This document shows, piece by piece, positions 28,510-33,146 of a DNA stretch of 64,000 nt. The notes below the pieces were generated by a model. The model saw nothing but the letters and a program-made list of their open reading frames with translations, made no database searches and was not told where the DNA came from. The stretch covers positions 1 through 64,000 of the forward strand of contig JAADDS010000074.1 in NCBI GenBank assembly GCA_013153845.1, read 5' to 3'. Within the stretch, counting starts at the first letter, position 1. Every line of letters begins with the position of its first letter. The position numbers and the translations under genes were made by a program. Source of the stretch: Methanococci archaeon. GTDB taxonomy: Archaea; AGJL01; Methanococci; Methanococcales; Methanocaldococcaceae.

Positions 28510-31500
28510 CTATTCTATGCTTAAAATCTCTTCGTGTAGGGCTTTTAACACTTCCAAGTAGTCCACTTCTCCTCTTTCAATTTTATCCATTATCTCTTCT
28601 AAATCCCTTGTCCTCTCTTCAGAAATCAGATGTGGATAATTCTCTATTAGGAAGTTATAGACCTCAATTCCGAGTTTTGTAGGGATTAATTTATTTTTAT
28701 CCTTACTCTTTATTACATATTTTCTATCCAGTAGTTTTTTGATTATTTGAGCATATGTCGATGGTCTTCCAATGCCTCTCTCTTTCATCAGTTTGATAAC
28801 TTCTCCTTCATCATACAGTGGAACTTTTGGAACTTTTATAAGTTTTTTCTCTAACACTTTTAAACTGTTTTTTTCAATTTTTGGAAGTTTTTTCAATTTT
28901 AAAGGATAGAATCTACTCCATCCATCAAACTTTACATCCACATATCCTTCTATTTTTTCATCTAAATCTTTTATATAAATTTCTTCATACTCCAAAATTG
29001 CCTCCCTTGTTTGAGAAGCGATAAATCGTCTAAATATCAAGTCGTATATTTTTATATGGTTTTTTGTTAATTTTATATTATTTTCTCTTAAAAATTCGAT
29101 TAACTCATCAGTGTCCATCGGTTTAGTGGGTCTTATACACTCGTGAGCCCCCTCCATAAAGTAGTCCCTATTTTTAATATAATCTTCTAAGTTGTTAAGC
29201 TTCAAATACTCTCTTGCAACCTTCATCCCATCGATTGAGACCCTTGTAGATGATGTTCGATGATACGTGCAGTTATGTGAGATAATTCCATTAGATATAA
29301 AGTTTTCATTGCATTTAATGCTTAAATCATACACATAACCATCGTAGAAGAGATCTTCCACTTTTTTAACTTTAATGAATATCACGTCGTTGTATATTTT
29401 GACATTTTTATTTTTATTCTTATTTTCAATCACAGTTCTGCAAAATTCCTTTAAATTTTTGGTTTTTGTATATCTAACTATTTTTTCAGTGAAGGTAGTT
29501 AAGAACTCGTTGTCTATAACTAAAAAATATCCATTATGCTCTTGGATCATGGTTAGGATCCCTATTGAGTGAAGATAAATTCCGATCTTCTCTAATATGG
29601 ATTTATTTTTTGAAAATATGGTAATATTAATTTCTTTTCCTCTCCTTAAAAATGTCCCAACTGCATCCAAATAACCGGCAATAAATGCGTTTATATAGTC
29701 CTCTTTTAAAGAGAACAACTCCTCTACTAAATGCTCTTTTTCTGAACCTTGTAAACTTAATCTATCGTTTCCAAATAACAATCCAACATTATACCAAAAT
29801 TCAGGTTCTCTAACATCGTTGAAGTTATCTATCTCAACTATTTTTTTAATTTTTTCAAATATCTTAGAAGGGGAATGTGATCTTCTAATTTTATAGTTAT
29901 AATTAAATGGCATAACAACATAATCCCCTTCTTTTATATTTTTTGCAGGAATCCATTTTAATCTGCCATCTTTTAATGTTAATATATGGTGATCTGGCGT
30001 TGCTTTTATTTCATAATTATTTTGCAGTGTTATCCTTTTAAGATTTCCAGAGAATTTTATTTTCCACAAGCCAATAATCTTATCTTCTGCTATTAACTCC
30101 CTATCAAGATCTAATGATAGCACTTCCCCCTTTTCTCTATTTTTTACTATTTCCTCAATGGTTTTGATCCTTCCATCTCCCAATACAATGTGTGTATCAG
30201 GAGTTAAGCAAAGACCCAACTCGAACAGATCTTGGGCTATGGACATTATTTCATCAGTTCCTATGTGGTATCGTTTTGTTGCTTCTTCCAATAGAGTGTC
30301 TGTTGTAAATGGGGGCATTGGGGGCAGTTCTTTTTCGTAGGTTGTTGTTTCTACGCTGACTTCCTCTTTGTCAAACTCTCCTTCCCATATTTTTCCTATG
30401 TATATATCTCCTTCAAGTTTTAGCGATAAGTATGGAACTTTTATTTTATGTTCGTTATATCTCTCTATTATCCATCCTAAGACAGGTGTTTGAACCCTAC
30501 CGGCTGAGAGGTAGTTTTTGTTAAACACTTCCCAAAGTTTTTGACTTAATCTGAATCCTATCCATCTATCTTCGATTCTTCTGACAATTTGACCTTTAAC
30601 TTTGTTCTCATCCAAAGATAACTCTTCTCCTTTTTTAAATGACTCCACTGCTCGTAATATTGCTCTTTTAGTAATTTCATTAAATCCAACTCGATATATT
30701 TCGCTGTTAAACGGAAGGGCGTTTAATGCAATATCATAACCTATTTTTTCTCCTTCAGTATCAATATCTGTGGCTATAAATAAAGCGTCAACTTCATCTG
30801 CTATTTCCCTAATTATTTCTATATTATCTTTTGCATCGATTATATTTGTTATTTTTTCTCCTTTTTCCATTAATTGTTTTATAACATCCTCTAAATCTTT
30901 TTGATCAGTGAATTGCTCTCCATTCACTTTCTTTATTGATGTATATATTGGAATATATATATTATCTTCTATCTTAACTCCGTAGAATCCTTCTTTCGTA
31001 ACGAGGTCGAATACATGCCCTCCGCTTGCAGTGATTAATAGGTTTAAATCCCCAACACAAACTTCATAAATGTTTCTATTTTTTATTTTTCTAACAGAGG
31101 GTTTTCCGAAAAAGTTTGCAATAGTTCTTGCTTTATTTGGACTTTCAACAACCATAAGCACTGATTTAAGCAGATCTGGGGTCTTTCCAGAACTTCTTCC
31201 AGATTTTATTTTTTTTCTATCTTCATCTATTTTTTTAATTAACTCCCTTATGTCAACTTCATCGATCTTTTTAAACTCACTTTCATACATAAATAACATA
31301 TATTTTCTTAGATATTCAAATATCTCTTTATCATCTACTAAAACTATACTTGCTCCCTTAGTTAATCCGAATTCAGTCATTCTCGAAGTTCTTCCAGAAG
31401 CTTGAATATATGTTTTTACATCAGGAATTAGGATAAAATATTCCCCATTTTCAAGTTTAATTGAGAAATTTTTCATTTTTAACTTTTCTTTTACTATATG

Positions 31501-32811
31501 TCTTATTTCATCTTCTGATTTATTCTCAATATCGATATTTTCTTTCAAAACTCCTTTTTCAATTAATTTGTTAATATATTCTTTTAATTTAATCTTAAAT
31601 TTTGGAATTCCGTAAAACACTGCGTATCTAACTCTTTCAGGCATATCTAAGCCCCTAACTAAAACACCATAGTATGAAGCAACCCCAATTAATATATCTA
31701 CTTCTCCTTTTCTAAACTCTTCAAATCCTTTTTTATCTTTTGAGTAAATCAATTTTGCCTTTATATCATTTTCTAACAAATATTTCTCTATCTCTTCAGC
31801 TTTCTCTACTCCGTAATCGATTGGAACGAACACTAAACCTCCTGAACCAAATATTCTTATATACTCTAAAACCTTCTCTTTCTTAAATTCCTCGTCATAA
31901 ATATCCTCTACATCTCTAAGTTTATTCATTCCAAACCCAATTTCAAAATCTAACAACTCCCTATAAAGTTTAACCTTATCTCCATAACTCTTCCCCGTTG
32001 CTGAGGCAATAATCAAACATCCATGATTTATATTCGAGACCTTTCTTTTTAATTCTTCTCTTTTTTTCAGTGCCTCTTCTATCTTCCCAATTTTTATTAG
32101 ATATATGATTTTGTATGCTTCTTTTATCAGTTCTTCATTAAATCCCAATAATTTCAATGTTTTATCAATATTTTTTGATGCTTTTAACAGTGAATCAACA
32201 TCATCAACAAATACAAAGTCGAATTTATTGTTTATATCATTTTTAGCCAAGTAATTTGATGTAGTTATTAGTAAATTATAATCTCCATTCTCTATTTTCT
32301 CTTTTGCTTCTTTTTTTTCTTTTGTAGACAGATCTGAATGATAAGAGACCACTTTTATATCTAATTTGCATTTTTCAATTAGAGAAAGAATCCGATCATG
32401 GGTTTGTTTCACTAAAAGAGTTGTTGGCAATATAATGTAGCATTTTTTTCCTTTATTGGATAAATATAAACTCATTATTATTCCAAAAAAGCTCTTCCCC
32501 ACACCTGTTGGTGCCACTATTGAAAAACTCTTATTTTTTAACACCCGCTTTGCCCACATCTTTTGAATGCTTAAAAGCTCAAATCCTAAGTTTTTTACAA
32601 ATTCTTCAAATTTTTTGAACTCGTTCCATACTGAACAATATCTATTCAAATTTTTTAAGGTTTTCTCTTTTTTTAAGTTTTTGCATAGTTCTAACTTCTC
32701 TAATTTTTCGTCAATTGGCAGACACTTTTCACAAACCCCAACTTCCAATCTCTCACTTCTTATCTCGTCTTCACAGTTTGGACACATGCCCTTGTAGATT
32801 ATCGGAATCAT
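28510..32811 (-). CDS. rgy: Reverse gyrase precursor with in-frame intein
   Basis: 1433 residues including a 313-residue intein (868-1180), so the extein is 1120 residues, standard for the family. An N-terminal zinc finger (CPNC...CEKC, residues 10-30) leads into a helicase-like half with Walker A APTGVGKS at 100-107, FVDDVDS, and SATGKS. The topoisomerase IA half has the Toprim motifs VVESPNKA (~552) and ATDIDTEGE (~680). The catalytic tyrosine is in TYHRTSSTR at ~1183, one residue past the intein-adjacent Cys. It positively supercoils DNA at high temperature. ATG 32811 has GGTG upstream; the longer start at 32841 lacks one. Confidence 0.97.
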   Translation of the reverse strand: MIPIIYKGMCPNCEDEIRSERLEVGVCEKCLPIDEKLEKLELCKNLKKEKTLKNLNRYCSVWNEFKKFEEFVKNLGFELLSIQKMWAKRVLKNKSFSIVAPTGVGKSFFGIIMSLYLSNKGKKCYIILPTTLLVKQTHDRILSLIEKCKLDIKVVSYHSDLSTKEKKEAKEKIENGDYNLLITTSNYLAKNDINNKFDFVFVDDVDSLLKASKNIDKTLKLLGFNEELIKEAYKIIYLIKIGKIEEALKKREELKRKVSNINHGCLIIASATGKSYGDKVKLYRELLDFEIGFGMNKLRDVEDIYDEEFKKEKVLEYIRIFGSGGLVFVPIDYGVEKAEEIEKYLLENDIKAKLIYSKDKKGFEEFRKGEVDILIGVASYYGVLVRGLDMPERVRYAVFYGIPKFKIKLKEYINKLIEKGVLKENIDIENKSEDEIRHIVKEKLKMKNFSIKLENGEYFILIPDVKTYIQASGRTSRMTEFGLTKGASIVLVDDKEIFEYLRKYMLFMYESEFKKIDEVDIRELIKKIDEDRKKIKSGRSSGKTPDLLKSVLMVVESPNKARTIANFFGKPSVRKIKNRNIYEVCVGDLNLLITASGGHVFDLVTKEGFYGVKIEDNIYIPIYTSIKKVNGEQFTDQKDLEDVIKQLMEKGEKITNIIDAKDNIEIIREIADEVDALFIATDIDTEGEKIGYDIALNALPFNSEIYRVGFNEITKRAILRAVESFKKGEELSLDENKVKGQIVRRIEDRWIGFRLSQKLWEVFNKNYLSAGRVQTPVLGWIIERYNEHKIKVPYLSLKLEGDIYIGKIWEGEFDKEEVSVETTTYEKELPPMPPFTTDTLLEEATKRYHIGTDEIMSIAQDLFELGLCLTPDTHIVLGDGRIKTIEEIVKNREKGEVLSLDLDRELIAEDKIIGLWKIKFSGNLKRITLQNNYEIKATPDHHILTLKDGRLKWIPAKNIKEGDYVVMPFNYNYKIRRSHSPSKIFEKIKKIVEIDNFNDVREPEFWYNVGLLFGNDRLSLQGSEKEHLVEELFSLKEDYINAFIAGYLDAVGTFLRRGKEINITIFSKNKSILEKIGIYLHSIGILTMIQEHNGYFLVIDNEFLTTFTEKIVRYTKTKNLKEFCRTVIENKNKNKNVKIYNDVIFIKVKKVEDLFYDGYVYDLSIKCNENFISNGIISHNCTYHRTSSTRVSIDGMKVAREYLKLNNLEDYIKNRDYFMEGAHECIRPTKPMDTDELIEFLRENNIKLTKNHIKIYDLIFRRFIASQTREAILEYEEIYIKDLDEKIEGYVDVKFDGWSRFYPLKLKKLPKIEKNSLKVLEKKLIKVPKVPLYDEGEVIKLMKERGIGRPSTYAQIIKKLLDRKYVIKSKDKNKLIPTKLGIEVYNFLIENYPHLISEERTRDLEEIMDKIERGEVDYLEVLKALHEEILSIE
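29272..30210 (-). other. Intein in reverse gyrase with degenerate LAGLIDADG endonuclease
   Basis: Begins with Cys in CLTPDTHIVLGDG (splicing block A). It continues with block B TPDHHILTLKDG, an endonuclease remnant, and ends with NGIISHN followed by extein Cys (29269-29271). N-terminal Cys, penultimate His, terminal Asn and +1 Cys are all present, so protein splicing should work. The two endonuclease motifs read VGLLFGND (intein residue ~141) and IAGYLDAVG (~177). The position-8 acids are Asn and Val, and the motifs are only about 35 residues apart. The endonuclease is probably dead and shortened. Insertion site is directly before the catalytic Tyr region. Confidence 0.93.
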
Positions 32812-33146
32812 ACTTAACACCAAAAATATTATTTTAATCATTCTATTTGGTTTATTTGGGTTTAAAAACTTTATTGGTATTTATGGCTGATTAGATCTCG
32901 TTGATTTTTAGCAATATCCGATTCATCAATAAAACTGTATAAAATAATATTTTAAGATATTCATTTCCTTATTTTATTTTTCTTTTTTATTTTTATTTTT
33001 ATATCTTTTTGTGAATCCACTTCATTTTTATCTTTATCATGCTGTTTTTATCATGATCGTTAATGACAAATTATTTATATTATTAACTTGTAAAAAAAAT
33101 TAACATCATAGTAAGTATTATTTTTATTAAATATTACGGTGGTAAT
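32812..33146. other. 335-bp AT-rich region between divergent reverse gyrase and CobN-like genes
   Basis: No ORF or structured RNA recognised. AT-rich TATA-like sequence ATTATTTATATTA near 33070 may serve the CobN-like gene. Otherwise T-rich filler. Confidence 0.55.

Follow-up and report, generated by a model that had tools for sequence, protein, structure and literature searches.

The homing-cycle model of inteins predicts stages that lie between a mobile intein and a mini-intein (PMC1654191). Degenerate endonucleases have been studied in two described inteins: that of PhoVMA neither binds nor cuts its own site (PMC8966425), and that of MjaTFIIB aids splicing (PMC6801210).

Here we describe a reverse gyrase intein found in a window of 64,000 nucleotides, the whole stretch of DNA that was analysed. 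It is clearly an in-between stage of the known intein life cycle and not a new kind of element. Like PhoVMA (PDB 7qst), it has lost the active-site Asp residues and kept the splicing fold, but PhoVMA retains its endonuclease architecture, whereas one repeat is mostly deleted here. It also resembles the TFIIB inteins of M. jannaschii and M. vulcanius, members of the same genus, in which a degenerate endonuclease sits within an otherwise working intein. Those inteins, however, occupy another gene and site, and the role of their remnant in splicing has been tested, whereas the window intein is known by sequence and model. The closest described system is the 494-residue Mja r-Gyr intein, which shares the site, the clade and the splicing blocks (splicing domain 67% identical). 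It differs in having both catalytic acids, the full motif spacing and 351 endonuclease residues, against 169 residues and no acids in the window. We interpret the window intein as a formerly mobile element that, judging from its sequence, is splicing-competent and has lost homing (probability about 0.9).

The intein and its host gene

The genome that contains the window is an incomplete 1.43-Mb draft in 74 contigs. Its host is presumably a Methanocaldococcus, as judged from a genus-mate that we take to be M. jannaschii. The intein comprises residues 878-1190 of the reverse gyrase ORF, between ..DLFELGL and CTYHRTSS.., and its extent and length agree with the initial annotation (Table 1). Translation may in fact begin at the Met of codon 11 (MIPIIYKG..). 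Tyr+3 (29263-29265) is the predicted topoisomerase IA catalytic tyrosine, as expected for the family, and the intein is inserted two residues ahead of it. Because reverse gyrase can work only if this neighbouring active-site tyrosine is linked to the N-terminal portion of the enzyme, we infer that the intein excises itself. Excision would proceed by ordinary class 1 splicing through Cys1, the TxxH block, the His-Asn pair and Cys+1, the predicted splicing nucleophile of the C-extein. Splicing would restore reverse gyrase across Tyr+3, without homing.

The initial annotation placed the intein next to the catalytic tyrosine of an essential enzyme. The position stands, but "essential" is overstated: T. 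kodakarensis still grows when reverse gyrase is deleted, although growth becomes temperature-sensitive and its limit drops from about 95 °C to about 90 °C (PMC12713403), so the enzyme is not strictly required.

Table 1. Coordinates of the reverse gyrase locus in the window and of topoisomerase I mini-inteins in other genomes (the latter as locus:positions)
Feature	Position	Strand	Remarks
Reverse gyrase gene, exteins and intein	28510..32841	-	1443 codons; DEAD, Toprim, Topoisom_bac and zf_Rg matches; orthologues across the order
N-extein, ending ..AQDLFELGL	30211..32841	-	
Intein, 313 aa, CLTPDT...ISNGIISHN	29272..30210	-	
HINT splicing domain, N-terminal part, residues 1-104, with Cys1 and TxxH block	29899..30210	-	Intein_splicing, model
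TxxH block, T71 to H74	29989-30000	-	T71 and H74 invariant over 19 inteins
Endonuclease remnant, residues 105-273 (169 residues; 351-352 in full-length relatives)	29392..29898	-	
LAGLIDADG motif 1, VGLLFGND, residues 142-149	29764..29787	-	aligned to GLVLGDG of four relatives
Motif 1 acid position, N148, AAC	29767-29769	-	GAT (Asp) in full-length relatives
Retained second LAGLIDADG repeat, residues 171-244	29479..29700	-	
LAGLIDADG motif 2, IAGYLDAVG, residues 177-185	29656..29682	-	aligned to four full-length relatives
Motif 2 acid position, V184, GTT	29659-29661	-	CGT (Arg) in G013; GAT (Asp) in full-length relatives
30-nt in-frame deletion, 10 residues (KSNKKIKVGN), relative to G013	29397..29398	-	A-rich stretch
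Splicing domain, C-terminal part, residues 274-313, with VYDLSI, His312 and Asn313	29272..29391	-	
C-extein with stop, beginning C+1 T Y+3 H R T	28510..29271	-	
Topoisomerase I mini-intein	L118:1501-2151	-	
Topoisomerase I mini-intein	L117:1501-2151	-	
Topoisomerase I mini-intein	L032:1360-1908	-	
Topoisomerase I mini-intein	L031:1216-1767		
Topoisomerase I mini-intein	L121:1201-1650		
Topoisomerase I mini-intein	L064:2254-2805	-	
Topoisomerase I mini-intein	L124:1207-1677		

The splicing domain

The Pfam Intein_splicing profile matches residues 8-313 of the intein (E 4.7e-38). All of the class 1 residues (C1, T71, H74, H312, N313 and C+1) are present, as first claimed, and they are invariant in 19/19 inteins aligned. 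We modelled the intein with AlphaFold using an alignment of 19 inteins, which replaced a six-sequence alignment that gave a poor model (pLDDT 55). The resulting model (pLDDT 88.3, pTM 0.89) contains a complete splicing fold with a compact insert, and its closest PDB structures are PI-PfuI, PI-PkoII, TliVMA and PhoVMA. Both the profile match and the HINT fold, in which the model matches solved inteins, place the intein in class 1. These features are best explained by a 313-residue intein that is competent to splice.

Differences from the intein of the sister species described below (genome G013) are unevenly distributed. Eleven of 19 amino-acid changes fall in residues 24-59 (window 30034-30141), a segment flanked by splicing blocks one and two. 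The cluster may be either a rapidly evolving loop or a tract of recombination.

Decay of the endonuclease

When aligned with four full-length inteins from the same site, the window motifs fall exactly on FWYFAGLVLGDG and IAGYFDTDG. This alignment rules out a wrong motif assignment and upholds the motifs originally proposed. As proposed, neither has its catalytic acid: the full-length relatives show the changes to be D to N in VGLLFGND and D to V in IAGYLDAVG. Motif 1 reads G-N-D-R, leaving an Asp one position after the dead acid, and in the alignment with the four intact relatives there is no alternative motif with intact acids. The spacing between motifs, measured from G to G, is 36 in the window and G013 and 82 in the full-length forms. 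Thus, the early estimate of about 35 was sound, but the 90-130 regarded as usual does not describe this same-site family.

Relative to the 494-residue form, the window intein has lost 181 residues (494-313), close to the 180 or so estimated from the sequence. The missing residues are spread over about seven long blocks (about 20, 23, 22, 46, 24, 16 and 23 residues), with some small gaps besides; the exact edges of all the gaps are uncertain, and the number of blocks does not equal the number of deletion events. Only the 46-residue block lies between the motifs, and all of it comes from repeat 1. Overall, the deletions have removed the greater part of repeat 1 between the motifs, and of the accessory stretches as well.

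What remains is still recognisable. The LAGLIDADG_3 profile matches residues 171-244 (E 4.3e-8), and the modelled endonuclease region forms a compact remnant with both LAGLIDADG helices (136-147 and 170-184), a beta-beta-alpha-beta-beta-alpha unit (185-243) and a last helix (251-262). Of the two original LAGLIDADG repeats, the model shows only the second. This repeat and the first interface helix probably pack on the splicing domain, and they may persist by helping to orient it.

An active LAGLIDADG endonuclease has two motifs with catalytic acids and two full alpha-beta-beta-alpha-beta-beta-alpha repeats; here, N148 and V184 occupy the acid positions and only repeat 2 can be recognised. A mini-intein has no endonuclease sequence and spans about 130-200 residues; here, a 169-residue remnant still matches LAGLIDADG_3. 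The initial annotation saw an intermediate between a mobile intein and a mini-intein, and the full-length relatives, the shared deletions and the continuing change agree with it, with loss of cleavage predicted from the replaced residues. The 313-residue intein would be unable to cut an empty allele and would pass on vertically. The remnant is basic (pI 9.2), and this charge, together with the Asp after the first dead acid, makes residual DNA binding possible.

Same-site inteins and their inheritance

We searched 36 genomes of the phylum, 22 of which have a near-complete reverse gyrase gene. Six of these 22 carry an intein at the site: the window genome (313 aa), G013 (323), G004 (494), G006 (495), G009 (495) and G034 (494), the last belonging to a different family from G004. 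The other 16 give an uninterrupted match across the site. Position +1 is Cys in 6/6 carriers; at those uninterrupted sites for which this residue was extracted, it is Ser, Thr or Cys. In a tree with other inteins of the order, the six group as a single clade (bootstrap 100 / SH-aLRT 99), which rules out a different intein at the same site. Their shared site and monophyly place them in the Mja r-Gyr allele (GL/CTYHRT, the slash marking the insertion point). All four full-length forms contain GLVLGDG and IAGYFDTDG, and G013 contains GLLFGND and IAGYLDARG. One of the genomes with a 494-residue intein is presumably that of M. jannaschii, in keeping with the length of about 494 initially given for that species, and we take G013 to be M. 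vulcanius.

The reverse gyrase of G013 is 97% identical to that of the window, and the inteins themselves are 94% identical, with the long deletions in common and GND in motif 1. The G013 intein differs in its length, in having Arg rather than Val at the second acid position, and in keeping KSNKKIKVGN within the last missing block, a segment lost only in the window. Sequence is present there in the full-length forms as well, so the simplest reading of the 30-nt deletion makes the window allele derived. The best explanation of these sequences is that endonuclease decay began before the species split from its nearest relative and has continued since. A single site in a single genus offers a series: empty, occupied by a full-length intein that looks mobile, half-deleted (323 aa) and deleted further (313 aa). 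This series makes the homing cycle, and the question of whether the remnant is debris or scaffold, directly testable.

Two alternatives would undercut this account. It is very improbable that the endonuclease is still active, either as a single-repeat dimer or with acids supplied from elsewhere. Single-repeat LAGLIDADG enzymes generally dimerise, and this, like the basic character of the remnant, speaks for activity; however, both acids are replaced, the four intact relatives leave no other candidate motif, and the second acid position differs between the sister species. An assembly or sequencing artefact can practically be dismissed. Although the host genome is a 74-contig draft, the frame is open throughout and the long deletions recur in G013, a separate genome of 3 contigs. 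Since G013 shares these deletions and yet differs at 10 residues and at the second acid, the decay is inherited and has gone on since the two species parted.

The full-length forms behave differently from the short ones. The G004 and G034 inteins are 90% identical (dS 0.40), although dS in the surrounding exteins reaches about 2.3. The reverse gyrase site is empty in G035, to which G034 is most closely related. From these comparisons, the full-length forms look recently mobile, with signs of transfer between families. Immediately 3' of the site (L022, L030), G034 is 88% like G004 vs 80% like G035 over 60 nt only, a possible co-conversion tract. The short forms occur only in the two sister species and show no excess similarity to the full-length forms: their splicing domains are 64-67% identical to the full forms, compared with about 78-83% identity for the host proteins across the genus. 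This is the pattern expected if the short intein is now inherited vertically after the loss of homing. The window's incomplete genome showed no additional copy of full length.

Possible selection on the remnant

We compared codon models for the window and G013 genes, split into exteins, splicing domain and remnant. With one shared rate, omega was 0.087 for the exteins, 0.37 for the splicing domain and 0.19 for the remnant, and neutrality of the remnant was rejected (p 1.5e-8). When each part was given its own rate, omega for the remnant was 0.51 and neutrality was not rejected (p 0.23). The free-rate model was itself favoured over the shared rate (p 0.017). Taken together, the codon models hint at constraint on the remnant. 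A conditional simulation of neutrality for the remnant gave P 0.17. The open reading frame does not count as evidence of such selection: the host protein would be disrupted by any frameshift.

That the remnant is unselected debris, shrinking towards the state of a mini-intein with some 150 residues, falls a little short of an even bet. The dead acid has changed differently in two species (GTT, CGT), a further deletion has occurred, neutrality is not rejected when the local rate is free, and inteins at the equivalent topoisomerase I site in the order are already 150-217 residues long. Decay of this kind fits less well with a remnant that differs at only 15/507 nt against an extein dS of 0.16, that has changed less at the protein level (8/169) than the splicing domain has (11/144), and whose modelled domain is compact and confidently positioned. 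The remnant may instead be a retained scaffold, since the sequence allows purifying selection and the modelled domain is compact. We hold this mutualism, in which the remnant is kept for splicing, only tentatively, at somewhat under even chances. It draws on the compact model (pTM 0.89), the omega of 0.19 under the shared rate and the precedent of MjaTFIIB and MvuTFIIB in the same genus (PMC6801210), but the local dS of the remnant is low too, and the apparent constraint may reflect a recombination tract or chance. A bolder version, that half an endonuclease has been domesticated as an obligate splicing scaffold controlling topoisomerase maturation at the active-site tyrosine, is rather doubtful. 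If the scaffold reading is true, the domesticated endonucleases of Methanocaldococcus gain one more example.

Other inteins in the genome and order

In at least seven genomes from Methanocaldococcus and its relatives, topoisomerase I carries a mini-intein of 150-217 aa at GL/C SYPRT. This site is equivalent to that in reverse gyrase, two residues ahead of the catalytic tyrosine. The topoisomerase I inteins fall in a clade of their own, apart from those of reverse gyrase, and this separation rules out cross-homing between the two equivalent sites. In the window genome, topoisomerase I (L107, G000:C74:1-4500) has an empty catalytic-tyrosine site (ALISYPRS) and a 162-aa mini-intein at another site, K/CLAAN...VVHN/STRA. 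This genome is intein-rich overall, with 28 intein splicing profile matches on 13 contigs, and it contains full, degenerate and mini forms.
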